Source of the DNA: a virus
DNA: 26,449 nt
Virus record (IMG/VR): IMGVR_UViG_3300033984_000543
Span: 1 to 26,449 of that record
Direction: 5' to 3' (one strand)
The position numbers and the translations under genes are program-made. Positions 1,342 to 26,449 of this stretch are shown in pieces; position 1 is the first letter of the stretch, and every line of letters begins with the position of its first letter. The notes under the pieces were generated by a model. That model searched no databases, had not been told where the DNA came from, and saw only the letters and a list, made by a program, of their open reading frames with translations.

Positions 1342-4300
1342 TTAATTATATTTGTTCAACCATCCACCTGGTTGTGGTTTGTTATAGTTTGTAAAGTTAG
1401 TCAATTGATCTAAGTTCTCCAAACCTTTTTGTTCTTGTCTAATGTTTCCTCCTTGCTTTAATCTAGTGAAATATATATTTGGAACTTCATACTGATTATT
1501 ATTATATGTTGCTCTAGGTAATTTCTTGCCTGATAGTTTTTCTAGTTGTTCAATTTTAGAATTTATATCTTTTAAAGCTAATTTAGGCATATTGTTAGTA
1601 TATCCCAAACTATTTAAACTAGCTTTACCTGATTGAACATTTACATCCACTATTCCTTTCTTGAACATCATTGCTCCTGCATCAAGTGTAAGAGGATATG
1701 AATCTGTACTAAGACTACCTGAACCAATGAAGTTAGTACCTTTAGAAGAATTTTCAACTCTGTTAATAGCTTGTCTTAATTGTGTTGTAGTACTTCCTTG
1801 TGATTTAAGTCCACTGTAAATTTGATTACCTCCAGCATCAAGAACGTATTGTCCAGTAGAAGTATACATAGGTTCATAAGCATAATTAGTTTTTGCCATA
1901 CCTATTAATGATTGTGGAGAATTTGAAGGAGTTTGATAATCAATAGAATTGTCTCCAAAATTCTCTGCATAACTTCTTCCTATCTTTTTTACTAAACTTT
2001 CATTACCTGTTGGAGCTGCTAACTTAGTTTCATTTAATGACGGTCTTCCAAGATCATCAACCTCTGTGAGATCTTTTATACCTAAAGGATTACTCACTAA
2101 ATCAACTTGATTTTTATCTGTAGCAGGAACAATATTTTTGTATTTATCAAGTAGTTCTTGTTTTGTAACTCCTAATAATCTTTCTACAACAGCGTCATCA
2201 AGTTTTAATATTTCTTTATTAATTTTAACTAATGCTTCAGGGTCAGTCATTATTTTATTACGTTGCCCAAACATTGCAGCTTCGTATTTACCTAACTCAC
2301 GAATAGCAGCAATAGTTTCTTTTTCTTTTGCAGAGTATTGAACAGGTTGTGTAGGAAGTTCTTTCTTCCCAATAGATTTAACAAACTCTTTAATTATCTC
2401 AGCATCTTTCTTTTTGTTATAGATAGATATTTTCTGAGCTTTTGTTAAATTATCTTTTATTACTTTAGTGAATGTTTTTCCTTCTGGTAGAGCATTAGCA
2501 AACTCTTTTATTAAACGATGAACTTCTTCTAATGTACCTGGTTCCCCAGTACCATTTGTAATTTCTTGGATTCTCTTACCAAGAGGTGTTTTAGCAATTT
2601 TACCTTGAATGTTTAATGATTGTCTAGCTGCTTCGGATGGTTCCATTATATTTTGTAAAGCCATTCGATAATTATAATTTGCATTACCTATATAACCATC
2701 TAAATCTCCTACCGATTGAGGCATATAACTAGGAGAAACGTTATCATAAGAAGTTCTAACATTATCAATGTTATCTGTTAATTGAGTTAACTCACCTGTT
2801 TTATCAGTCTTAACATTTTGTAAATATTTTAAATGATCATATGTATCACCAATATTACCAGCAACATCTTTTCCAAACTGTTTAACTTTAGGAGCAACCT
2901 CAGAAACAGTCTCAGATAGTTTACTTATATTTTGTGGTATGTTTGCAATAGCACCTGGAGCTTTCACAACTAGTTTAGTTAATCCAGGAAGTGCTTGATA
3001 TGTCATTGGATTAAAAGCCATTGATTCCATAGGACTAACGTTACCCATTCTTTGCATACCTAATGTAGGTGTTTCTCTAAAATCTTCATATGAAGACATA
3101 TTAGTATTCTTCAAATAGTTTGCTACAGCATTACCTGGTAAGTTTAAAGGAGCAAACGCTTTAAATCCAGAAAGGTTTGCATTTCTATCTTCTTCTTCTT
3201 CTTGTGGTGTTAGACCAGCAATAGGAAAGTTTAATGGATTACCAGGAAGCAATGTATTTCCAATCTGTTGTAAACCACTTAATCCTTCAGAAAACTCATT
3301 TGGATTTAACTGTGAAGAGTATTCAGAATTGATTAATGCTTCTCTTTCATTTGGTGTAAGATTATAAATCCAATTATCTCGTTTGTTTAAATCAAACCCT
3401 CTTTGTTTTGCAATCTTTTCTAAAGCATTTGTGTTTCTATCATAATCATAGTTAGCGTTTATATCACGCAATACAGTCTCAGGGAAGTTAGTTCTATCAA
3501 TACCAAACCAATTACTTTCACCAAGTCCTTTTATGTATTCATCTTTCTTCTGATTAATGAAAGCCTCTCTACCATTCTTCTTATCATACTCAGCTCTTGC
3601 TTTTGATAATGGTGTACTCTTTCCTTTAACTACAACATCCTCAAGTTGTCCACCAAACATAGGTATATTATTTTCTCCTGCATTAGGAACTTGTATCTGT
3701 CCTTCCTTATAAATTTTTGCATACTCTGGAGAAGCTGTATTTATAGTTTCAATATCACCTTCTTCATTTTTTAATTTTATATTCTTACCTTCTTGAGCCA
3801 TAGGATATTCTGTAAACTTTTTTGCTCCTGGAAACTTTTGTGTTCCTGTATTAGGTTGTACTAATCTAGGCTTACCTTTATCTGGAACTACATATAACGG
3901 TATATCACCGTACCCATGTGTTGCCATTGTATCTCCTGATATTTCTGTTATCTCTCCTGGATGATTCCATTGTCCCATATCATCTTTAATGACTCCTCCA
4001 TCTTCATAGCTATCTAACCATCCACCATTTTTACTAATACTCTTAGGTTTCCAATCTAATCCCTCTTGATAGTATTTCATCTCTTGACCATTCTGTGCAG
4101 AAGCATCTGTTACATCAGTTTGATTTCTACGTGGTCCTTTACTTGGTGCACCATGTCTTGCATACATATTTCCTGTAGCTCCAGGAATAGACATTCCCAT
4201 CTGTGCTTGAGGAACATAATTAACTGGATAGACAAATCCACCCATTTGAAACTGACCCCCCCATGCAGGAGAATAATCTCTACCTTTGGTGTTATTACCC

Positions 4301-4386
4301 ATACCAACAAATCCTTCTGGTAATGATACAGAGGAATTGTTTTCATTTGCTTTTGTTCCGTAATTATCTAACCAACCTTTTGCCAT
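1342..4386 (-). CDS. crAss-like cargo protein with G-W-L-x-x-Y motifs
   Basis: A 1014-residue protein starting 1 nt after the preceding stop. The motif G-W-L-[DN]-x-Y occurs three times: at residues 4-9, at about 121-127 (followed by E-D-G-G) and at the extreme C-terminus (GGWLNKYN). After the second copy comes D-M-G-Q-W-N-H-P-G-E-I-T-E-I and a downstream T-E-Y-P-M, a block I recall from crAss-like cargo proteins placed just after the muzzle gene. Residues about 270-1000 are charged and helical in appearance, with Lys/Glu-rich segments. There is no catalytic motif I recognise. Family knowledge suggests a capsid- or tail-stored protein ejected into the host. The terminal W-L-x-x-Y motifs at both ends may be docking peptides; that is inference. 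Lineage confidence is good, mechanism unknown. Confidence 0.82.
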   Translation of the reverse strand: MAKGWLDNYGTKANENNSSVSLPEGFVGMGNNTKGRDYSPAWGGQFQMGGFVYPVNYVPQAQMGMSIPGATGNMYARHGAPSKGPRRNQTDVTDASAQNGQEMKYYQEGLDWKPKSISKNGGWLDSYEDGGVIKDDMGQWNHPGEITEISGDTMATHGYGDIPLYVVPDKGKPRLVQPNTGTQKFPGAKKFTEYPMAQEGKNIKLKNEEGDIETINTASPEYAKIYKEGQIQVPNAGENNIPMFGGQLEDVVVKGKSTPLSKARAEYDKKNGREAFINQKKDEYIKGLGESNWFGIDRTNFPETVLRDINANYDYDRNTNALEKIAKQRGFDLNKRDNWIYNLTPNEREALINSEYSSQLNPNEFSEGLSGLQQIGNTLLPGNPLNFPIAGLTPQEEEEDRNANLSGFKAFAPLNLPGNAVANYLKNTNMSSYEDFRETPTLGMQRMGNVSPMESMAFNPMTYQALPGLTKLVVKAPGAIANIPQNISKLSETVSEVAPKVKQFGKDVAGNIGDTYDHLKYLQNVKTDKTGELTQLTDNIDNVRTSYDNVSPSYMPQSVGDLDGYIGNANYNYRMALQNIMEPSEAARQSLNIQGKIAKTPLGKRIQEITNGTGEPGTLEEVHRLIKEFANALPEGKTFTKVIKDNLTKAQKISIYNKKKDAEIIKEFVKSIGKKELPTQPVQYSAKEKETIAAIRELGKYEAAMFGQRNKIMTDPEALVKINKEILKLDDAVVERLLGVTKQELLDKYKNIVPATDKNQVDLVSNPLGIKDLTEVDDLGRPSLNETKLAAPTGNESLVKKIGRSYAENFGDNSIDYQTPSNSPQSLIGMAKTNYAYEPMYTSTGQYVLDAGGNQIYSGLKSQGSTTTQLRQAINRVENSSKGTNFIGSGSLSTDSYPLTLDAGAMMFKKGIVDVNVQSGKASLNSLGYTNNMPKLALKDINSKIEQLEKLSGKKLPRATYNNNQYEVPNIYFTRLKQGGNIRQEQKGLENLDQLTNFTNYNKPQPGGWLNKYN

Positions 4387-4387
4387 T

Positions 4388-5254
4388 TTACTTATAAGAT
4401 ATTTGTGCAGGAGTAGTTATGAACTGACTCACTAGATGCGTTGTATTACTATTATCAAGTATATGTCTCACTTTTAATTCTTTTGCTCTTAGCGTTGCTT
4501 TCTTGAAGCTTCTAGGACCATAGTCCATATTCTTTTGATTCACTATCTTATCTATTGAAAGACTCTCACATGATGTAGTGAATAATGGAATCTGAGAACT
4601 TATCTCTGCAGCCCAGAATGTATTGTACTGGTAGAAGTTATCACTCTTAGTGTATGTGATAGTTTTGCTCTCAGCATTAAGAATAGGATATTGCATGTAA
4701 GCTTTCATGTTATGAAGAGGCTTAGCTACAAGCTCAAGTATTCCAGAACTCTGTTGTCCATTATATAAGACAGCTTTATTAAACCATTGATCATTTGTTT
4801 CTATCCTTGTGTTATCATCAAACACACCATCAAATATAGGAAGATATTTATATGCCTTAGTATAATCTTTTACATTCTGAAGAATTTCATCTTGGAATTG
4901 ATATGAAAAAGGATACTCAATGATATATGGTTCTATGTGTCCATAGAATTCATTATACTTTTGTATGTTTGTTAAATGTCTCCATAAACATCCAGTTACA
5001 GATTGTGTATATTTTATATTCTGATACTCTACTATATTGATAGGTTTAAGTGGAATAACAACAGAGAGAGTACACTCACCTGTAGAGGTAAGAATAACTT
5101 CATTTACACTAACATCAACTACATAACTTATACCTTCAATCAATGTTTTTCTAGAAACATTTTCAGCTATAATATTACCAAAAGGATCAGTGATGGTAAA
5201 TGGTCCAGCAGTTGGTCCAGTTTGTATTAATTTTATGGTTATAACTTTTGTCAT
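4388..5254 (-). CDS. C-terminal piece of split muzzle protein behind a G-P-F module
   Basis: A 288-residue product of two parts. Residues 1-72 are the G-P-F module (GPF at 17-19, later S-T-G-E-C-T), homologous to the N-termini of the 298- and 85-residue proteins at 15942-16838 and 15665-15922. Residues about 85-288 (W-R-H at 91-93, F-Y-G-H-I-E-P-Y-I-I-E-Y-P, then Y-N-G-Q-Q-S-S-G, D-N-F-Y-Q-Y-N-T-F-W, L-R-A-K-E-L-K-V-R-H, ending P-A-Q-I-S-Y-K) look like the C-terminal region that normally ends crAss-like muzzle (P22 gp10-like) tail proteins. I infer that this gene carries the detached C-terminus of the 1749-residue protein. The ATG follows the preceding stop by 1 nt (TAAGATG), so translational coupling is likely, and it lies in a different frame from its upstream neighbour. 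Confidence 0.8.
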   Translation of the reverse strand: MTKVITIKLIQTGPTAGPFTITDPFGNIIAENVSRKTLIEGISYVVDVSVNEVILTSTGECTLSVVIPLKPINIVEYQNIKYTQSVTGCLWRHLTNIQKYNEFYGHIEPYIIEYPFSYQFQDEILQNVKDYTKAYKYLPIFDGVFDDNTRIETNDQWFNKAVLYNGQQSSGILELVAKPLHNMKAYMQYPILNAESKTITYTKSDNFYQYNTFWAAEISSQIPLFTTSCESLSIDKIVNQKNMDYGPRSFKKATLRAKELKVRHILDNSNTTHLVSQFITTPAQISYK

Positions 5255-5255
5255 C

Positions 5256-6815
5256 TTAAGGAGCAGTTGTAGTGGTTGTTGTTGTTGGTACTATAGTAGT
5301 AGTAGTTGTGGTTGTTGTTACATCTTTAATAATAGGACTAACTACACATGTTCCAATTTGAGTTGCAGAATTTATACTTGATAAATCAATACTATATCCT
5401 AAATTTAATAATACAAAAGGAAATGCTTTAATTATTACATACATATTTCCAGATGCATCTGTAACATAAATATCACAATCACATTCAAATAATGTTACAC
5501 CCCCTACACTTCCAATATTAATATCAAGTTCAAGTGTTCCTGTAGAATAATTGTATTGTGATATGTAATAATCAGAACTTGTCATATCTCTATTGATTAT
5601 AATTATCTGACCTGTCTGCACATATAACGGATTACCATAAGCAACTCTATTTAATAGCAATGTAAACTTAATAGTGGCAGATGCTGTTAATGTAGTGATG
5701 TCTAATTCTGTAACCTCTTGTTGAGATGGTGTATCATTTATACCAATCAATGTAGTGTTATTTAAAGCAACAATTCCAGATGAAGTAGTAAATCCTCCAG
5801 GAAGAGTTATTGTTCTATTAAATGTTGCAGCAAATGGATTTAATACTATGTTCCATTCTTTTATATCAGTATCAATAGACCAGAATCTATTTGTTGTCAT
5901 AGCTATACCTGCAGATGATACATATCCTGGTACAGTTAATGGACTTACAACATTTAATACTTGATCTAAATAGTTTATAGTATCATTAGCTGATAATAAT
6001 ATTCCACAACATTCTGTTAATATAGGTAGAGTGGTGGTGGTGCTAGTTGTTGGACCACAATCACATGTTGATATTTCTACAACTACACCTCCTACAACAT
6101 GATAAAAAATATCAAATGTACGTGAAGAATCTGAAAGATACCATCCATCAGGAACAAATGTACAATCAAGACTATCTCCATAATAAACTATGTTACCAAT
6201 TTCTAATTCAGTTGATGTAGTGGTAGCATACACATTAAATGTATTTAATGTACCATCAAGTGGATTAGCACTAATATATTGAACAACAGGCGAAGCATTA
6301 CATGCATCTTGTAAAGTGGCAATGAATATTACTTCTGGATCTGTTCCTAATGTATATCCTTGTGTAAATATAAATTGAGTTAATAAATTATAAGGTCTTT
6401 GACATATAGTAGTAGTTGTTGTTGGAGGTACAGTGATAATTGCATCACCTACTAATTCACAACTTGTTGTAATTCCTATTCCTACAAGTGTACAATCTAA
6501 CACTGTAGTGGTAGAAGTAGTTGTAGGAGGAGAATAAAAAGTTGTAGTTGATGTAGTGCTAGGTGCCACTTTATTTAACACTCCAGCAATAGCTTTAAAC
6601 CCACCAGCATCAGCATCATCACAACATCCATTAAGTCCTGAATAAAAGAAATTGTTTTCTCCTATATAGAAATTAGGGATGTAGCTATGAAATGATATCC
6701 ATGTTTTAGTGTTTAAATTAAATGACATAGTCCAACTCTTATTACAGAAGTAGTCTGGGTCATTTAAATAAACTTGTGTTCTTAACACTACTGGTGTTTG
6801 TATTTCCTTAGCCAT
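5256..6815 (-). CDS. Middle piece of split muzzle protein carrying Thr/Ser-linked accessory domains
   Basis: A 519-residue product. Residues about 8-65 (D-Y-F-C-N-K-S-W-T-M-S-F, then W-I-S-F-H-S-Y-I-P-N-F-Y and a closing F-Y-S-G) look like an internal segment of crAss-like muzzle proteins that normally lies between the end of the 1749-residue gene's body and the start of the 288-residue gene's second half. The rest is foreign to that family: Thr/Ser linkers at about 85-105, 129-137, 253-263 and 499-519; a paired C-x-L-V-G micro-motif; a beta domain (about 138-252) with a G-W-Y and G-V-V-V-E-I-S-T-C ending; and a longer domain (about 264-498) with F-W-S-I-D, N-R-T-I and Y-I-S-Q-Y-N-Y-S-T-G-T-L-E motifs that reads like a small beta-propeller. 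It ends in bare linker. The start is 4 nt after the previous stop. Confidence 0.75.
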   Translation of the reverse strand: MAKEIQTPVVLRTQVYLNDPDYFCNKSWTMSFNLNTKTWISFHSYIPNFYIGENNFFYSGLNGCCDDADAGGFKAIAGVLNKVAPSTTSTTTFYSPPTTTSTTTVLDCTLVGIGITTSCELVGDAIITVPPTTTTTICQRPYNLLTQFIFTQGYTLGTDPEVIFIATLQDACNASPVVQYISANPLDGTLNTFNVYATTTSTELEIGNIVYYGDSLDCTFVPDGWYLSDSSRTFDIFYHVVGGVVVEISTCDCGPTTSTTTTLPILTECCGILLSANDTINYLDQVLNVVSPLTVPGYVSSAGIAMTTNRFWSIDTDIKEWNIVLNPFAATFNRTITLPGGFTTSSGIVALNNTTLIGINDTPSQQEVTELDITTLTASATIKFTLLLNRVAYGNPLYVQTGQIIIINRDMTSSDYYISQYNYSTGTLELDINIGSVGGVTLFECDCDIYVTDASGNMYVIIKAFPFVLLNLGYSIDLSSINSATQIGTCVVSPIIKDVTTTTTTTTIVPTTTTTTTAP

Positions 6816-6819
6816 TATA

Positions 6820-9800
6820 TTAATTTTTTATTAAACGAACAGAATGTTGAGTTTGTGCTTCTTGAGAACCAAGATTAGCTGTAGTATCAGTATTTCTAAA
6901 GAATATTCTACCACCCATATCAAATCCAGAAGATATACTATAATCTGAATTCCAAAAATATCCATTATATCCTATATTTGCAGGAGGGTGTGTAACTGTT
7001 CCATTTGCAAGCTGCACTCCTCCTGGCAATGCAGTGAAGCCACTAGTATTATCAGCTGGATTAGGACTGAGCCAAAGACTAGTTCCTGTTTGTTTTAAAT
7101 GTCCTCCAGCAACAGAACTTCCACCTAAACAATCTATTACAGTTTGATATTGTGAGGATGAAGGAACATTGTAACCTATTGGAGCAAATTGTTTTCTTAA
7201 TGTAGGATTTAATCTAGATGCAGTGTCATAAACACCAGCTACTGCCCACCAATTATATAGTTTTCCATAAATAGGACCGTTAGCTGGATCAAACGCAGCA
7301 TATGACCAACATCCTATTCTAGCTGCTGCATAAGCAGTTAGTTCATTTTGATTATTTGCTTGAGGAATAATAGTTCCATCTCTATATGTTACAATATCAA
7401 CATTTTTAGATGTCCAATTCACTCCACATATATTTACTACTGGATATAATGTAGTAGAAGTTGTAGTGGTTGTACTTGTACTAGTAGAGGTAGTGGATGT
7501 AGTACTACTTGTACTACTAGACGTAGTGCTTGTTGTAGGTGTATAAATAGTTGTTGTAGTAGTAGTTGATGGAACTACAACATATACAGTTTTCTCAACA
7601 TAGAACTCTTTAGTTATAGGATCATATTTTACATCTTTATCAACTGGAATATAATCTAGTTTGGTAATTATAACTCTTTCAAACTTGCTATCATATACAC
7701 CATGTAATCCAATACCATTAAAATTGTTATCTGTATCAACTCCTGGAATAGTAATTGTTTTACCACCTATAGTTTCTTGATGTGTTGGAAAATATCTAGA
7801 GATTTCAAATGATAAGTGATCTGTTAGGAATCTATTTACACCAGAACCAAATCCTCCTATCTCTTCAATCTTTGTTCCTTCAACTAAAAATACTTGTCCT
7901 CTTTTAGCATCCACTGTAATTTGTCCTTGAGGAATCTTAAGGAAGAATTTATTCTGACTTCCTACATATCCAAGATCTGTTTCAGCAAAATCAATTGGTA
8001 CAGCACTAAATATATTAGGGTTACCCAAATAAGCTGCTTGAGGATTACTTGTATTCATTGTTAATAAATTATTATATAACAATGATTTATTTTCAAATCG
8101 AGCAAGTATAGATTTATTTTGAATACCATCTAATGATATTAGATTACCATAGTTTTGAGGAAAATCAAATAATGATAATGGAGAATAGCTTAACCAATTA
8201 TTTACTCTTACATCAACATTGTTAACCTGAGGATCTGAATATACCACTCTAAATGGATAATATGTAAAGCATAAATCTGATGTCCAATCTGCTGGTAGAT
8301 GTGAAAAGAAGTTCTCTTTATTTTGTTTAGAGAATGTTACATTATAAAAATATGTATTATCATAAGCAATTGTTGTAAACTGTTCTTGTACCCAATCATC
8401 TGGAATACTTGTACTAACATGTGGCCAGAAGTTTCCTTCTCTATCATTAAATGCTTGACGAAGATCTACATTATAATTAGACTCACAATAGAAACTAGGA
8501 ATTCCATATGCAAACAAATAGAAATATCCATCATAAAATGTTCTATATGTACCAGTTCCACCATCAACGGTTGATGATATATCTTCAGGATAATTATAAC
8601 AATCAAAACTATGTGCTTTAATTGATACAATATTTATTAAACTCTTATATGTATATAGAATAGATCTAGCAGAATGCCAGAATTTTGGATAGGCTATATT
8701 ACCAATCTCATCATAGAATATATCACTATCATCTATTCCATTCACTCTATTATCTAAGAAGAATGGAAGTTTTGTTTTGTAAGCAAATTTATTTATAAAT
8801 GTATCTCCACCAAACACTACATCATCAGAATAAGAACTTATATTAAACATTCTTTGAAATCCTGTATCTACTGTTTCATAAGAATATATTTGTCCCCATT
8901 GGTTTACAAATATATTTTTTATTGATGCATAATAAGATACCACTTTAATATCTCTTTCTTTTTCAGGAGTGTTACAATAGTTTATTTTTTCACCTGCAAC
9001 AACTACATCACATGCACCTTTTCCTCCAATAATAAATCTTGAATACTCTGATATTAATGATGTACCATTAGAATCTAAAAGACTTGGTGTTTTGTTAGGA
9101 AATGGAAGAGGATCATATTTATCTATTGTTTTTGTATAGATAGAAGATTCTCTTTGGAAATTATTAATATTTTTATCATCACCAACATTCAATACTCCTG
9201 GATTCAAATATGTATTTATATCAAGTTGTCTTTGTTTAATACCTGTTAGAGTTCCTGATGTAACATTATTACCTATATCTGCAGAGTAATCATAACTAGC
9301 TATAGAGTTAAATGATTGAGCATAGTTCTTTCTTGTAATACCATTTATATAAATAGTTAAGTATGCTTGATAAGCTGTAAATACAGCTGTCATATCTACT
9401 GGACTTGATGCAATAAGAAATGAACTATCTAAAGCATCTTCTTGAGCTTGTTTAGATAGAAGTCTATATTTAGCATTTCCTTTCACTGGAACAAAATGTG
9501 CCACTCCTGCACCAAACATTACATTTTCTAACTTAAGAACATTTCCTAAGAATGGTTGTGAGAATGATGTATCAGGAGAATTAAGTACTTGTCTTCTTGC
9601 AGACTCTGGTTTATTAATAGGTGGAACTGGTTTTGATTGTCCACAAGTTTCATTTAATGGAGATCTTCTACTATAGTTTCCATAACAAGTATTTTTAACA
9701 AAAGGTGGTAGTTCACCAAGAGCTAAAGGAAGAGGATATACAGGTTCTCTTGTACATACAGCTTCAGCACTTCCAGCATATCCATCTCTATTTTCATAAT

Positions 9801-12069
9801 AAGGCCATGTATCAATATCAACTCTATTAAGAATAAGCTCAGGTTGTCCATTACAAAAAAGCCAATAATAAGGATATTGACAATAAGGAACTGTTCCCAT
9901 TCTTAATGTTCTCAATGGAGAATTATCACAAGTATATTGTATATCATATCTTAAAAAATATGGATCTGTACAGATTGCTCCATTAAATCTAAGAACATCA
10001 TAATTACCAGGACCTATACATGCTTTACCTGTTTTATATTCAGGTCTTGTTAAAGAACAGAATTCATAATTTTCACCAGCAACCATTTTATTACAGCTTA
10101 TCAGCTTAGCTGTTAATGTATCTGTATATTCATATGTACCTGATTCTTTACATTCTACAATCCAAACTTTAGATTGTCCTAAACTATCATATGCATTAGA
10201 TGATGCATTTAAGAAAGGATCTTCGTTAAGATCATTATATGGATAGTTTGGATAGTAAAGAGTTTGTTCTTGTCTTGTATATGTTCCAACATTACGAAGC
10301 ATTCCTTTACCAACAATAGATGTATTTGTACTTCTATTACCTCTTACTATTTTGAATCCAGCAATATTATCTTTTTGCTCTTGTGTAATAGAAGAGTTTG
10401 TTATCAATGCTTGAACTTGTGCTATATCCACCTTTACACCCATTGGAAATACAGCATTATTTTGCATCTCTGGTTTAAAAGAATTAGTCAATGCGTATAC
10501 AGGACTTTCAAATATAGGACTAACAAGAACATCAGGAAATTTATGATGTCTAATTCTTTGACCAGCAAGATCCCCCCATACATCTTTATTACAAGGATAT
10601 TCTTCTATAGATTCCCAATAAGCAAAATCACCATATTGATATGGTGTAGCATTTCCAATTGGATTACCTGAAGCTTGTCCTAATACAGTGGCTGTATTAT
10701 ATATCTTCCAGTAAGGACTATATCCAATTCCTGTAACAGGATCAATATAATCAGGCTCACCTATAAAGTCAGCATTAGTTGTTGGTATATCTGGATATTG
10801 TAAATCATTATATGTTAATGTTCTTCCAGGAATATGGAACCCATCTGTTTGCTTTCCATTCTTTAATAAGAATACAATTTCAAATGCATACACCTCATCA
10901 CGTAGATATCCACGTAAGTTTGTAGCATTTAACTCATTAGAATAATTTTCAGTGGAAGGAATTTTATATGTCTCCCATTTAAGATCTATTTGAGATGCTA
11001 TATCTTGGTAGTTGATTCTATCTATAGATGTAAGATTATCCCACATAAGAACATCTTGTGCAGCAGTTACATCTTGAGCTATATCATAGTAAGGATACTT
11101 TTCAAATATATCTGTAAGTGATAGATTGATTAGTGTGTTACTTTGTCCAGTGTAAGTAATTGTATCAACTTCATTTTCAATTGAGTATGTACCAACTAGT
11201 ATTGGTGTAACTACACCATTCACTGTAGCAATTACAGCTATGTTATAATACATATATAGCCCTGATATATCTAAATTTGTAATAGATAGTTCAATAGACT
11301 TACCCACCTTATAATCAAATATAGCAGTTGTTTCAAACTCATCAAACATAGGTGTAGGATTCGTAATAGAATAATATGATGTGTAAGGATTACCTGATGC
11401 ATCAGAATACTGTACAGCAAACTGGTATGTACCAGAAGTAAGATCACCACCATTATATATATTAATCACTTCAAGTTGAGGAATTCTAAAATTAGGTTGT
11501 ATCTTAAGTTGATTACAATCTAATTGATCTGTATAAGTAGGATCACAAATACTTGAATCAATAGTTGGTGTATAAGGAATGTTTTCAATGTCTAAATATC
11601 TTCTAGAATTATATCCATCTGTCCAATATATTTCAGTCTTACAATTTGTAATCTTATGGACCACTTTATGTATTGGATAATTAATATTGAAGTTAAGACA
11701 TGCTGCTTCTACTAATGTACGATATATACAGTCATTATTATCCATGTATCCAATCTGACTCATTCCTATATTAGAATTTACTAGAAAGAATATATGTTTA
11801 TTTTTTTCATTAATAAAATAAGTACCTAATAAAGAATATCCTGATGGAAACTGTAAGCAAAATTCATTAGCTTGTTCATTCTGATAATTAACAGAACTAG
11901 CATCAAAGTTTTCTAAAGCAGCATTCAGTGCATAGGTTAATGTACCAGGTTTGATTTGATTTAAAGTTTGATCCATATTTAAACCAGTAGCTCCAAAATT
12001 AGGCTGTGGTTTAATATTACTTTGATCTCCACCAAGTATTTGTTTTATTTTATCTAACTCGTCTGCCAT
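6820..12069 (-). CDS. Muzzle-type tail protein (P22 gp10-like), N-terminal bulk, with C-terminal FISUMP domain
   Basis: A 1749-residue product, the largest gene here. The N-terminus (N-F-G-A-T-G-L-N-M-D-Q, L-N-A-A-L-E-N, then Y-W-T-D-G-Y-N-S-R-R-Y-L-D-I) follows the pattern I know for the long tail-stabilising or muzzle proteins of crAss-like phages, which close the distal end of the short tail. The muzzle-like body runs to about residue 1500 (G-V-Y-D-S-K-F-E-R-V-I-I-T-K-L-D-Y-I-P, then K-Y-D-P-I-T-K-E-F-Y). Homologs continue here; this one instead enters a Thr/Ser linker (1501-1541) and then a FISUMP domain (about 1542-1749). The missing C-terminal segments appear in the next two ORFs. The gene lies between a connector gene and the cargo genes, the expected place. 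The muzzle assignment is strong, the fold of the body is inferred. Confidence 0.85.
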   Translation of the reverse strand: MADELDKIKQILGGDQSNIKPQPNFGATGLNMDQTLNQIKPGTLTYALNAALENFDASSVNYQNEQANEFCLQFPSGYSLLGTYFINEKNKHIFFLVNSNIGMSQIGYMDNNDCIYRTLVEAACLNFNINYPIHKVVHKITNCKTEIYWTDGYNSRRYLDIENIPYTPTIDSSICDPTYTDQLDCNQLKIQPNFRIPQLEVINIYNGGDLTSGTYQFAVQYSDASGNPYTSYYSITNPTPMFDEFETTAIFDYKVGKSIELSITNLDISGLYMYYNIAVIATVNGVVTPILVGTYSIENEVDTITYTGQSNTLINLSLTDIFEKYPYYDIAQDVTAAQDVLMWDNLTSIDRINYQDIASQIDLKWETYKIPSTENYSNELNATNLRGYLRDEVYAFEIVFLLKNGKQTDGFHIPGRTLTYNDLQYPDIPTTNADFIGEPDYIDPVTGIGYSPYWKIYNTATVLGQASGNPIGNATPYQYGDFAYWESIEEYPCNKDVWGDLAGQRIRHHKFPDVLVSPIFESPVYALTNSFKPEMQNNAVFPMGVKVDIAQVQALITNSSITQEQKDNIAGFKIVRGNRSTNTSIVGKGMLRNVGTYTRQEQTLYYPNYPYNDLNEDPFLNASSNAYDSLGQSKVWIVECKESGTYEYTDTLTAKLISCNKMVAGENYEFCSLTRPEYKTGKACIGPGNYDVLRFNGAICTDPYFLRYDIQYTCDNSPLRTLRMGTVPYCQYPYYWLFCNGQPELILNRVDIDTWPYYENRDGYAGSAEAVCTREPVYPLPLALGELPPFVKNTCYGNYSRRSPLNETCGQSKPVPPINKPESARRQVLNSPDTSFSQPFLGNVLKLENVMFGAGVAHFVPVKGNAKYRLLSKQAQEDALDSSFLIASSPVDMTAVFTAYQAYLTIYINGITRKNYAQSFNSIASYDYSADIGNNVTSGTLTGIKQRQLDINTYLNPGVLNVGDDKNINNFQRESSIYTKTIDKYDPLPFPNKTPSLLDSNGTSLISEYSRFIIGGKGACDVVVAGEKINYCNTPEKERDIKVVSYYASIKNIFVNQWGQIYSYETVDTGFQRMFNISSYSDDVVFGGDTFINKFAYKTKLPFFLDNRVNGIDDSDIFYDEIGNIAYPKFWHSARSILYTYKSLINIVSIKAHSFDCYNYPEDISSTVDGGTGTYRTFYDGYFYLFAYGIPSFYCESNYNVDLRQAFNDREGNFWPHVSTSIPDDWVQEQFTTIAYDNTYFYNVTFSKQNKENFFSHLPADWTSDLCFTYYPFRVVYSDPQVNNVDVRVNNWLSYSPLSLFDFPQNYGNLISLDGIQNKSILARFENKSLLYNNLLTMNTSNPQAAYLGNPNIFSAVPIDFAETDLGYVGSQNKFFLKIPQGQITVDAKRGQVFLVEGTKIEEIGGFGSGVNRFLTDHLSFEISRYFPTHQETIGGKTITIPGVDTDNNFNGIGLHGVYDSKFERVIITKLDYIPVDKDVKYDPITKEFYVEKTVYVVVPSTTTTTTIYTPTTSTTSSSTSSTTSTTSTSTSTTTTTSTTLYPVVNICGVNWTSKNVDIVTYRDGTIIPQANNQNELTAYAAARIGCWSYAAFDPANGPIYGKLYNWWAVAGVYDTASRLNPTLRKQFAPIGYNVPSSSQYQTVIDCLGGSSVAGGHLKQTGTSLWLSPNPADNTSGFTALPGGVQLANGTVTHPPANIGYNGYFWNSDYSISSGFDMGGRIFFRNTDTTANLGSQEAQTQHSVRLIKN
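6823..7446 (-). other. FISUMP domain (Fibrobacter succinogenes major paralogous domain) encoded within the muzzle gene
   Basis: Residues about 1542-1749 of the 1749-residue protein. Visible FISUMP hallmarks in order: I-C-G-V-N-W-T-S-K-N-V, Y-R-D-G-T-I-I-P, Y-G-K-L-Y-N-W-W-A-V, L-x-P-T-L-R-K-Q-F-A-P-I-G-Y-N-V-P-S, C-L-G-G, G-G-H-L-K-Q-T-G, N-T-S-G-F-T-A-L-P-G-G, G-Y-F-W-N-S and the terminal H-S-V-R-L-I-K. The family is typical of secreted Bacteroidota and Fibrobacter proteins and has a C-type-lectin-like fold. On a phage tail tip it is a natural candidate for binding host surface glycans or proteins; that function is inferred. Confidence 0.92.
7447..7569 (-). repeat. Thr/Ser linker in the muzzle gene
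   Basis: About 41 codons, residues 1501-1541, almost all Thr or Ser with a single I-Y-T-P interruption. It joins the muzzle body to the FISUMP domain. Codons are mixed (ACA, ACT, AGT, TCT), so the DNA is a degenerate rather than perfect repeat. Confidence 0.9.
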
Positions 12070-12074
12070 AATGA

Positions 12075-13049
12075 TTAGTTATTACGTCTTCTACCATATC
12101 TATTAGTACGGTTAGGAAGTTCATACATATTGAATCTATTAAGATCGTTTTTAATTCTTCTCTGTTTCTCCCAAGGAGTTTGTTTCTTAATCTCAATACT
12201 AGCCATGATGAAAGCTTCTTCATAGGCTTGTTTGTGATAGATTAACTTTTGTTGTAACTGATTAAAAGTTTCATCATTAGTTTGATTGGTAAGAGTTTCG
12301 AATATCTTAAACTTAAGGAATGCTTCTACATACTCTCTAATACGATAGTTGTCAGGAATCAATTGATTACCTATCTCATCATACTCTGTAGCATAGAATA
12401 TTAAATGCACAACACCATTTCTGAAATTAGTTACAAACTTATTATCTCGTATATCAAATGAATCATAACTAGCAGATCCAGGAGTGAACTCATGGATAGG
12501 AGGAGCTTCAGCATAGAAGTCCCAGTTGTTTGTATATTCTACTCCACAGTTTTGTCTTGCAGAGATGTTTCCAGGCTTAAGTAAATAGTCATGGGTGAAC
12601 CCTCTAGCAACAGTGTTATTTGTTTTGTAAACAGCTTGAACTAACACAGGCATACATGTACCATCACATTGTGGAACTTGACAACCAGGTCTATTACAAG
12701 GAGTTCCTCCAATAGTTAGTGGAGCCACTTGAATAGTGGTAGCAGAAGCTGCTTGAGAATAGAATGAATTAGCTGATTGATATGGATATCCTGCAACCTC
12801 TGTAGTCATCCAAGCTTCTCTAACAGCATAAAAGTTGTCAGGAAGTCTAGCTTCAAAGTCTTCAATAAATAAAACTTCATCAGTAATTACATAGGTAGTT
12901 CTTCCTAACTTCTTTAGAGCTTTGTCTAAGTAAGTAGGAAATAACAAATCGTCTACAGCACCTGTATCAAAATAAGATTTTAATTCTTCTTTAACAGTTG
13001 AGTAGACAGGTTCTGGGCTTATGAAAGCATATTTATAATAGTACGACAT
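12075..13049 (-). CDS. Head-tail connector / ring-type protein with a cysteine knuckle
   Basis: A 324-residue protein directly before the muzzle gene, with a 5-nt gap. The N-terminal part (T-Y-L-D-K-A-L-K-K-L-G-R, then F-E-A-R-L-P-D-N-F-Y-A-V-R-E-A-W) and the C-terminal part (Y-R-I-R-E-Y-V-E-A-F-L-K-F-K-I-F-E-T-L, then Y-H-K-Q-A-Y-E-E-A) are what I expect of the conserved crAss-like connector protein in this position: helices packing in a ring below the portal. Residues 118-132 add a compact cluster, C-x4-C-x4-C-x3-C, in a loop between these blocks. The C-terminus is strongly basic (R-I-K-N-D-L-N-R then N-R-Y-G-R-R-R-N-N), suitable for contact with DNA or an acidic surface. No enzyme motif is visible. 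The assignment rests on position and remembered patterns. Confidence 0.72.
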   Translation of the reverse strand: MSYYYKYAFISPEPVYSTVKEELKSYFDTGAVDDLLFPTYLDKALKKLGRTTYVITDEVLFIEDFEARLPDNFYAVREAWMTTEVAGYPYQSANSFYSQAASATTIQVAPLTIGGTPCNRPGCQVPQCDGTCMPVLVQAVYKTNNTVARGFTHDYLLKPGNISARQNCGVEYTNNWDFYAEAPPIHEFTPGSASYDSFDIRDNKFVTNFRNGVVHLIFYATEYDEIGNQLIPDNYRIREYVEAFLKFKIFETLTNQTNDETFNQLQQKLIYHKQAYEEAFIMASIEIKKQTPWEKQRRIKNDLNRFNMYELPNRTNRYGRRRNN

Positions 13050-15664: not shown

Positions 15665-15922
15665 TTATGGTAAACCTGTAGTAGAAGAAGTAGTTGTTGT
15701 CACTTCATCTAGCACTATATTAATAGAGTTGGTGCATTGTCCAGTTGATAGTACCTTTATGATTGTTGTAAAATCAGGTACTAGTGAAGAGGAATATCCT
15801 GCAAGCAAAGATGCTTTAGGTACTCCTGATTCAAATGCTGTTACATATCCATCTAGATTTGAATATAGATTGAAGGGGCCTGAATCAGCCCCAGCAACCG
15901 TTAGTGTTATAAATACTGTCAT
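15665..15922 (-). CDS. Minimal G-P-F module protein with stub linker
   Basis: An 85-residue product: one G-P-F module (S-G-P-F-N-L-Y-S-N-L-D-G-Y-V, then L-L-A-G-Y and S-T-G-Q-C-T-N) followed by about ten Thr/Ser residues and a short G-L-P end. It is a close paralogue of the first 75 residues of the protein encoded immediately upstream, and the two DNA sequences are still visibly alike, so a tandem duplication is likely. The lack of any domain after the linker may mean truncation, or a free mounting module. It is the last gene before the terminator. Function unknown; virion location is inferred from its paralogues. Confidence 0.72.
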   Translation of the reverse strand: MTVFITLTVAGADSGPFNLYSNLDGYVTAFESGVPKASLLAGYSSSLVPDFTTIIKVLSTGQCTNSINIVLDEVTTTTSSTTGLP

Positions 15923-15941: not shown

Positions 15942-16838
15942 TTATGCTGGAATCTCACAATGTGTCATATCTGTACAGTCATAAGTACTTGATCCATACA
16001 AATATGCATCTGTTGCATTATTAGGATATGCTGTATCTATTATTGTACCACAATGAATTACTGTCTGACCATCAAAAGGTGCTGTAAATTGTACTACGTC
16101 ACCCACACTCCATGATGTAGCACCTTTTGGCATATTGTAATTAAATCCACTAACACACGCTATCACTTCATAGTTAGTATATGCTATAGGAGAAGTAGTG
16201 GTAGTTGTAGTAGATGGAAAACAAGGAGATCCTTGTATTGTAGCTTCTGGATGGGTATCAGTAATTAAAGGTACGGCAGCACATATTACAACTGAAGGAC
16301 CTGCAGGACCCACTTCAATAATATCTGGTACAACAGATCCACAAGGATAATAATCTACTATATGTATGTCACCAATAACAGGTTCTATTGTGAATGATGC
16401 ACATAGTGTAAGAGGTTCTTCAGTGGTAGTTGTAGTGGTTGTTGGAGCTGCAGTAGTTGTACTAGTGGTTGTTGATGTACTAGTTGATGTTGATGTACTA
16501 GTAGATGTGCTAGTACTGGTAGATGTGCTAGTACTAGTAGATGTTGATGTAGAAGTACTTGTACTAGTTGAAGTACTAGTTGAAGTACTAGAACTTGTAG
16601 TGGTGGTTGTAGGAATTAAATCAATTACTATAAAAATAGCATTTGTGCACACTCCTGTTGATTGCACTTTAATTATAGTTGTTCCATTAGGTACAACTGT
16701 TGATGTATATCCAGCTATTAAAGCTGCTGCAGATATACCTGTTGCAAATGGTAGCACATATCCATCTGTATTTGAATATAGGTCAAAAGGACCAGCGTCC
16801 CCACCAATTGGTAATACCAATGTTATTAATGTTGTCAT
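15942..16838 (-). CDS. G-P-F module protein with long Ser-Thr repeat and two C-terminal beta domains
   Basis: A 298-residue product. Residues 1-76 are the G-P-F module (A-G-P-F-D-L-Y-S-N-T-D-G-Y-V, S-T-G-V-C-T-N). Residues 77-139 are a linker dominated by alternating Ser-Thr, then A-A-P and a Thr run to E-E-P. Two small cysteine-containing beta-rich domains follow: about 142-214 (C-A-S-F-T-I-E-P ... D-Y-Y-P-C-G ... V-V-I-C-A) and about 223-298 (Y-E-V-I-A-C ... V-I-H-C-G-T ... Y-D-C-T-D-M-T-H-C), joined by a short Thr/Ser linker. I recognise the domain style from fibre-like proteins of Bacteroidota phages but can name no function; surface binding is the natural guess. It lies between two other modular genes with gaps of 19-28 nt. 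Confidence 0.75.
   Translation of the reverse strand: MTTLITLVLPIGGDAGPFDLYSNTDGYVLPFATGISAAALIAGYTSTVVPNGTTIIKVQSTGVCTNAIFIVIDLIPTTTTTSSSTSTSTSTSTSTSTSTSTSTSTSTSTSTSTSTSTSTSTSTTTSTTTAAPTTTTTTTEEPLTLCASFTIEPVIGDIHIVDYYPCGSVVPDIIEVGPAGPSVVICAAVPLITDTHPEATIQGSPCFPSTTTTTTSPIAYTNYEVIACVSGFNYNMPKGATSWSVGDVVQFTAPFDGQTVIHCGTIIDTAYPNNATDAYLYGSSTYDCTDMTHCEIPA
16422..16610 (-). repeat. Alternating Ser-Thr linker (63 codons)
   Basis: Residues 77-139 of the 298-residue protein. The core is a strict S-T dipeptide repeat written with mixed codons, giving imperfect 6-bp and longer repeats in the DNA, for example GATGTGCTAGTACT twice on the plus strand near 16504-16535. It is the longest dipeptide tract in the window and a likely site of length variation. 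Confidence 0.9.
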
Positions 16839-25406: not shown

Positions 25407-25440
25407 AATGTAGTTAAATTTAATAATTGGTTTTAATTTG

Positions 25441-25514
25441 TTGCGTGGGTAGGACTCGAACCTACGACCTCTGGATTATGAGTCCAGCAAGCTAACCAAC
25501 TGCTCTACCACACG
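25441..25514 (-). tRNA. tRNA-Met (anticodon CAT), initiator-like
   Basis: A full 74-nt cloverleaf: acceptor CGTGTGG with CCACGCA, D-arm GAGC/GCTT with loop AGTTGGTTA, anticodon arm CTGGA/TCCAG with loop CTCATAA, five-nt variable loop AGGTC, T-arm GTAGG/CCTAC with loop TTCGAGT, discriminator A at 25441. CCA is not encoded. Pair 1-72 is C-A, unpaired as in bacterial initiators, and pair 11-24 is A-T, also an initiator trait. Only two of the three initiator G-C pairs at the bottom of the anticodon stem are present (G29, G30, then A31). It lies in sense orientation between the capsid gene and the next structural gene. Confidence 0.93.
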
Positions 25515-25680: not shown

Positions 25681-26449
25681 TTAGAATTGTGGCATTTCCT
25701 CAATCAACACAGTTCTAGATAAATCTTCAATAAATACATCACATCTGTCTTTCATCCAGATTTCGTATCCAGGGAATTTGTTAGCACTTGACATACCTTG
25801 AGATTTAGCAAAACCTAAGTGATGACGAGTTCCATCAATATAACCCCATGTCATAGAAGGAGCACCTTTCATACGTACTTCTCTAATGTTATTCACCATT
25901 GATCCATCAGACATTGGAGAAACATCAAACACCATAAATACAGGAGTAGATTTTTTGTTTTGTCCAAACTCTAAGTTAGATTGTGGTAAATCTAATTCTT
26001 TTAAGTGAATCAATTCAACACGTCCAGTCTCACGAGTTACCATTGCATCAAATGCAAAGTTGTAAGTGATGTGTTGTCCTTCACCTTGTAAGTATCTGTT
26101 TCCAGAATCAGCCATGAAAGTAAGACCTGAGTTTAATGCATCTGTTTTCAAAGCTTGTTGGAATACATCGAATCCAGCTTCATTAGTATACATCTTAACA
26201 CTTCTATCTTTCACATCCACTCTTCTGTAGAATAAATCTCCAAATACAGAACGGATTAAGTTAGCAGAGAATTCACCTCTGTTATATTGTACCAAGTTTC
26301 CATTGTTACGCATTCTGTGGTATACACCAGCAGATGTACGTTTCAATTCTTGTTTAGAACCTCCAGATTTAACTGTACCTGGTTTAGCCCAAATCATACG
26401 TTTAACTTTCAATTCAATCATAGATTTACGCATCCAGAATTCAATGAAC
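25681..26449 (-). CDS. Major capsid protein, C-terminal part (start outside the window)
   Basis: The frame is open from the right edge to TAA at 25681-25683, giving about 255 residues; Met codons inside the window are internal, since the codons before 26433 read F-I-E-F-W. Blocks such as K-P-G-T-V-K-S-G-G-S-K-Q-E-L, V-Y-H-R-M-R-N-N-G-N-L-V-Q-Y-N, Y-T-N-E-A-G-F-D-V-F, G-Q-H-I-T-Y-N-F-A-F-D-A, V-F-D-V-S-P-M-S-D-G-S and the end R-T-V-L-I-E-E-M fit the C-terminal half of crAss-like HK97-fold capsid proteins. Hundreds of copies build the head. Position at the head of the structural run, followed by a structured 3' region, fits high expression. The lineage call depends mainly on this gene, the muzzle and the cargo genes. 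Confidence 0.85.
   Translation of the reverse strand, partial: FIEFWMRKSMIELKVKRMIWAKPGTVKSGGSKQELKRTSAGVYHRMRNNGNLVQYNRGEFSANLIRSVFGDLFYRRVDVKDRSVKMYTNEAGFDVFQQALKTDALNSGLTFMADSGNRYLQGEGQHITYNFAFDAMVTRETGRVELIHLKELDLPQSNLEFGQNKKSTPVFMVFDVSPMSDGSMVNNIREVRMKGAPSMTWGYIDGTRHHLGFAKSQGMSSANKFPGYEIWMKDRCDVFIEDLSRTVLIEEMPQF

Follow-up and report, generated by a model that had tools for sequence, protein, structure and literature searches.

In crassvirus tails, the muzzle forms a gate of roughly 1 MDa, and it has been described as one conserved chain. The variable insertions that the structural atlas of phiCrAss001 reports for the muzzle are limited to the crass and IG2 domains (PMC10172136). A literature search among open-licence papers yielded no description of a split crassvirus muzzle. 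The stretch of DNA analyzed here (the window; 26,449 nt, positions 1 to 26,449 of IMG/VR record IMGVR_UViG_3300033984_000543) encodes a tail ring protein at 12075..13049 on the minus strand (PF24228 CrAss_Ring_1, 4.2e-9) and a Crassvirus major capsid protein at 25681-26448 (PF23898, 4.9e-14), and it is therefore a fragment of a Crassvirales genome. A tRNA-Met gene (anticodon cat), also detected as Rfam RF00005, lies at 25440-25514 (-), just downstream of the capsid gene. The ring gene is directly upstream of three ORFs that the initial annotation had read, from the letters alone, as a single muzzle protein in pieces, and it is these ORFs and their relatives that we describe below.

Muzzle blocks in three consecutive ORFs

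All three ORFs lie on the minus strand, with ORF1 at 6820-12069 (1749 aa), ORF2 at 5256-6815 (519 aa), and ORF3 at 4388-5254 (288 aa). The spacing is 4 nt between ORF1 and ORF2 and 1 nt between ORF2 and ORF3, and each next ORF is shifted by one frame, as the initial annotation had stated. ORF1 matched the Pfam crassvirus muzzle family PF25731 (crAss_MUZ) with 95.4 bits against a cut-off of 27 (3.6e-27), and all three ORFs matched phrog_15100, a profile of 1783 positions, in order (ORF1 residues 29-417 to positions 12-416, ORF2 16-63 to 1540-1586, and ORF3 89-285 to 1589-1780). Matches to ORF1 and ORF2 were also found for phrog_37948. We named the blocks of the protein body, head2, and ct3, plus a GPF module, built one HMM for each, and examined the relatives. 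Head2 and ct3 reside in one ORF in Cellulophaga phage phi17:2, csAssE-Sib, Leptolyngbya phage Lbo-JY46, Flavobacterium phage FpV4, and a gut scaffold, with a head2-ct3 distance of -2 to 5 residues in these five single-ORF phage records, and the single-chain block order was also seen in several IMG/VR contigs. The pattern on which the initial annotation relied, that body, head2, and ct3 are contiguous in crAss-like muzzles, thus holds in distant phages.

Structural comparisons led to the same protein family. A profile of the single-chain relatives matched the phiCrAss001 muzzle gp44 (7qok) at 4.4e-9, with the body part being significant and with head2 and the start of ct3 aligning to gp44 residues 1193-1285, a stretch that is weak on its own. 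This profile was required, as ORF1 by itself gave no match when compared directly with PDB sequences; a profile of ORF3-type sequences likewise had no match among PDB sequences, and fold search alone found the muzzle. The predicted structure of ORF3 (pLDDT 84) matched 7qol_P (E 4e-4) and 7qok_A (5.7e-4) in Foldseek, both with a probability of 1.00, and these were the sole matches below 0.001. The joined C-terminus of a relative, locus L143, matched 7qok_A at 5.8e-10 in a fold search, using a model with a pLDDT of 59 that is good over its last third. We also tried to map the crass domain on this model and rejected the attempt because the first half of the model was too weak. In the window, the N-terminal sequence, the C-terminal fold, and the adjoining ring gene all point to a muzzle, and two chain breaks separate the blocks. 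The muzzle is therefore the set of three ORFs, none of which qualifies singly, and the sequence comparisons establish ORF1, ORF2, and ORF3 as consecutive blocks of one Crassvirales muzzle protein, in line with the initial annotation.

The breaks fall exactly where accessory domains attach, again as first proposed. The conserved muzzle body spans ORF1 residues 1-1500 (7570..12069, -), and its last strand, EFYVE, is the first arm of the site-1 hairpin. Near residue 1500 the chain leaves the body, as had been noted, for a Thr/Ser-rich linker (residues 1501-1541; 7447..7569, -) and a FISUMP (Fib_succ_major) display domain that forms the new C-terminus (residues 1545-1748; 6826..7437, -; PF09603, 2.1e-19, 70.9 bits against a curated cut-off of 33.9). 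Break site 1 (6816..6822, -) consists of a TAA stop, 4 nt, and the ATG of ORF2, and in relatives this position is a hairpin turn joining two strands of one chain. ORF2, placed by the order of the PHROG matches, has an 8-residue leader followed by the head2 block (residues 9-69; SWTMSF...WISFHSYIPNFY...FFYSG; 6609..6791, -), which holds the muzzle strands between sites 1 and 2, and a Thr/Ser-linked display arm of 450 residues with a Thr run at its end (5259..6608, -), in which a Pfam search found no known domain. Break site 2 (5255..5258, -) consists of a TAA stop, 1 nt, and the ATG of ORF3, and corresponds in relatives to a tight turn of 0-4 residues. ORF3 starts with the GPF module (residues 1-78; 5021..5254, -), a predicted beta-sandwich found almost only at N-termini, and continues into ct3 (residues 82-288; 4391..5011, -), the C-terminal part of the muzzle according to PHROG, the relatives, and the fold match. 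An Rfam search found no intron or other Rfam element at either break of the window.

The continuous chain of L143 indicates where these positions lie in the fold. Site 1 corresponds to the hairpin RFSL-NGN-TIQL and site 2 to the turn FYSG-RRDLG-SVWTH, both within the region that aligns to the C-terminal propeller end of gp44. Each of the two cuts is located in a turn that links neighboring strands, at the muzzle's beta-propeller end.

Census and history of the two break sites

Loci were collected from two IMG/VR scans, of which the best 80 matches per scan were kept, together with the five phage records, and they are not a random sample. The Leptolyngbya phage muzzle as a single query found no relatives in IMG/VR, and an alignment query succeeded. 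Among the matches listed, 143 loci have all blocks: 22 of them are unbroken, site 2 alone is broken in 95, both sites are broken in 22, and site 1 alone is broken in 4. Near-identical records are included in these numbers, and 112 representatives are left once near-duplicates are removed. No relative consisting of the body only was found among the matches listed, in which a block is missing only where a contig end cuts the locus; the exception is FpV4, the body of which was not matched by the body-C model. A break inside the body occurs in just 1 of the 156 listed loci with both body ends, through a lone stop codon, and breaks are therefore confined to the two turns. In locus L029, a lone in-frame TAA within 12300-12660 breaks the muzzle body and is either a sequencing error or a real nonsense change.

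As the window is a metagenomic contig, the breaks could be thought to result from assembly or sequencing errors in one gene, and the stop in L029 is possibly such an error. However, the arrangement of the window recurs at an identity of at least 91% in locus L002, which comes from another metagenome, and the 117 loci among the matches listed that are broken at site 2 come from many metagenomes and have the same 81-aa leader type. Breaks at two sites only, together with purifying selection on the blocks (see below), also contradict this explanation, which the census refutes and to which we give a negligible probability. The split muzzle belongs to a large uncultured crAss-like group that encodes this protein in two or three genes instead of one. 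No cultured phage with a split muzzle was found, and no host was assigned because no relatives of ORF3 were found in GTDB genomes.

The two sites have different histories on a tree of the body C-terminal region of the 112 representatives, obtained from quick maximum-likelihood runs. The state of site 2 changes once, with 89 representatives forming a fully supported clade in which all are broken, and with every outgroup joined. Site 2 therefore broke once, at the base of this clade. Among the matches listed, ct3 starts with a GPF module of ~81 residues in nearly every locus broken at site 2. Hits to this module are N-terminal in 217 of 222 cases, and it was detected in all three clade records, with no hit in nine outgroup records, of which one is short. 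A complete GPF-headed gene is present between head2 and ct3 in 12 representatives, and more than 100 nt separate the site-2 pieces in 15. Elsewhere in the window, GPF occurs as a free 85-aa ORF (15665-15922, -) and at the start of a 298-aa ORF (15942-16838, -), neither of which has a Pfam match, and three neighboring GPF-headed genes are found at 1680-5839 of locus L003, one of which is GPF plus FISUMP. GPF looks like an anchor module for display proteins, and the family of genes it heads is a practical marker of the clade. The break at site 2 probably arose when the start of a GPF-headed gene landed in the turn between head2 and ct3, bringing a new start codon. The arms that end at site 2 also contain the motif C-x-(L/F)-x-G between their Thr runs, with at least one copy in 104 of the 117 loci and several copies in short arms such as those of L023, L027, and L079.

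On the same tree, nine changes are counted for site 1, and well-supported branches force five of them, although recombination of the 3' cassette may mimic some of these changes and inflate the count. The anatomy of the site also differs between lineages. In L092-L094, on the phi17:2 side, head2 is preceded by a Cys-rich leader of 61-68 residues, in the window clade the leader has 8-12 residues, and in L025 the ORFs share 14 nt, with neither a linker nor an insert. These three different anatomies suggest separate origins, and site 1 appears to have broken several times independently, sometimes without any domain. Insertions of 110-326 residues at site 1 without a break were found in 17 of the loci among the matches listed, and FISUMP was present at site 1 only on broken chains in the loci scored. 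The initial annotation held that each insertion brings display domains plus a stop and a new start. For site 2 this is well supported, as ct3 starts with a gene-starting module that was not detected in the nine outgroup records. As a rule for site 1 it is not supported, because in L005, L011, L041, and L043 the split comes with no more than a short Thr tail on ORF1, and in L025 with no tail at all. In the phi17:2-like clade, the ORF1 arms include DUF11 with DUF285 repeats (L097) and PKD-like with leucine-rich repeats (L093), and in L094 the two pieces of the muzzle are separated by a Cys-rich ORF of 635 aa (9680-11587).

Locus L003 combines parts of both types of muzzle. Its bodyN and bodyC are closest to the window clade (79-83%), and for its head2, GPF, and ct3 the best agreement is with joined relatives (93-94% in head2 and ct3). 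Judged by these affinities, L003 is a natural recombinant with a junction near site 1, in which the body and head2 are again one in-frame chain. A simple reversal of the split was considered and rejected, as the body comes from the split clade and head2-GPF-ct3 from joined relatives.

Selection, translation, and assembly of the pieces

We compared the window with its less close relatives to estimate dN/dS, which was ~0.1 for head2 and ct3, 0.2-0.3 for bodyN and bodyC, and 0.5-0.7 for the ORF2 arm. These ratios show that the conserved blocks (bodyN, bodyC, head2, and ct3) are kept under purifying selection. Within ORF1, residues ~500-1000 have a dN/dS of 0.4-0.8, far faster than both body ends, as expected for exposed tail-tip loops. 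A role as target of a diversity-generating retroelement was rejected, since no RVT_1 was found in eight related records of 53-114 kb, the window itself being a fragment.

It could be argued that ORF2 and ORF3 have turned into independent virion proteins, such as fibers or adaptors, that act outside the muzzle fold while the body works alone. Both ORFs have gained unrelated domains (the display arm and the GPF module), other genes can separate the two pieces, and GPF also heads other genes, all of which would fit such a change of role. However, head2 and ct3 are the slowest-evolving parts of the protein and are missing only at contig ends among the matches listed, and L003 re-fuses the body and head2 in frame. 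In addition, head2 comprises ~60 residues of strands and is not expected to fold alone. We therefore regard an independent role for these pieces as improbable.

The very short gaps, and the few bases over which the site-1 frames overlap beside an A-run in the window, could instead suggest that programmed frameshifting or stop readthrough joins the pieces into a full chain. Against this, in most loci the reading frame of the downstream piece stays open for just a few codons before its start, the stops are mostly TAA, the gap modulo 3 takes all values among relatives, and some gaps are longer than 100 nt and contain complete genes. A fused product would also bury the display arms inside the chain, and ORF3 has a start of its own and is complete at ~288 aa. 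This explanation is thus highly improbable. We also rejected the assignment of the locus to programmed frameshift genes, which have a conserved overlap and a slippery site, as frames and gaps vary here and overlaps are mostly a few codons. The initial annotation had taken the gaps and frame shifts as signs of coupled production in fixed ratios, which our results do not uphold. The shift by one frame is not conserved, 15 representatives have long spacers at site 2, and the gaps resemble those of neighboring genes in these operons and so say nothing special on fixed ratios.

We consider it likely, at a probability of about 0.86, that the three ORFs encode one muzzle subunit made as three polypeptides, with strands pairing across the breaks and free ends carrying arms. 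That the pieces reassemble into one subunit is strongly inferred. The strands of ORF1, head2, and ct3 would pair across the chain breaks as they do in a single chain, and the usual hexameric muzzle would be built from 6 x 3 chains. Each break would leave free chain ends outside the fold and pointing outward, and these would hold the Thr/Ser-linked arms (FISUMP after ORF1 and 450 residues after head2) and the N-terminal GPF module on ORF3. At the tail tip, the display arms probably touch the surface of the host. More tentatively, and with somewhat less than an even chance of being correct, cuts at fixed hairpin turns of a core tail protein may be adaptive and may have served repeatedly to create free chain ends at the tail tip. 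Each break would then add attachment places for receptor-contacting arms while leaving the fold unstretched, and the pieces would be exchangeable by recombination, as in L003, resulting in a modular gatekeeper. Gate opening at infection might also be made easier by the chain breaks.

The muzzle is an essential tail-tip plug, and an environmental clade appears to build this gate from two or three chains. The natural series of joined, once split, twice split, and re-fused muzzles offers a test of how far a large self-assembling machine tolerates chain breaks, and could also be used to test whether such breaks diversify host contact. Annotators should be aware that ORF2 and ORF3 resemble orphan genes, yet are pieces of the muzzle.

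Comparison with known systems

The phiCrAss001 muzzle gp44 (7qok, 7qol, and 8ckb; PMC10172136) is homologous in its body, propeller, and C-terminus, as judged from profile and fold matches. In contrast to the window, gp44 is one chain of 1371 aa whose crass and IG2 insertions leave it unbroken (PMC10172136), and the breaks described here are further toward the C-terminus than these insertions. The gp43 of phi17:2 (2289 aa, the length of phrog_37948) has the same blocks in the same order and a 302-residue insert exactly at site 1, where its relatives L092, L093, L094, and L097 are split. However, site 2 is unbroken in phi17:2 and all of these relatives, the leader at site 1 is a different, Cys-rich segment, and neither of the two records checked yielded a GPF module.

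Podovirus nozzles have a related propeller fold at the tail tip, with Foldseek probabilities of 0.90-1.00 for SU10, Pa223, and Pam1, and with the related propellers of T7 gp12 and GP4 found weakly. Unlike the split muzzle, these nozzle proteins are single chains, as is the case for T7 gp12, and we know of no display arms at these turns in them. A propeller completed by a second polypeptide is found in Sec13 and Seh1, which are closed by strands of Sec31, Nup85, or Sea proteins (PMC9646525), and the split muzzle would resemble them in this respect. Those proteins belong to eukaryotic coat and pore scaffolds and receive one donated blade, whereas the split muzzle results from cuts at two turns of one viral protein, of which joined relatives are known.
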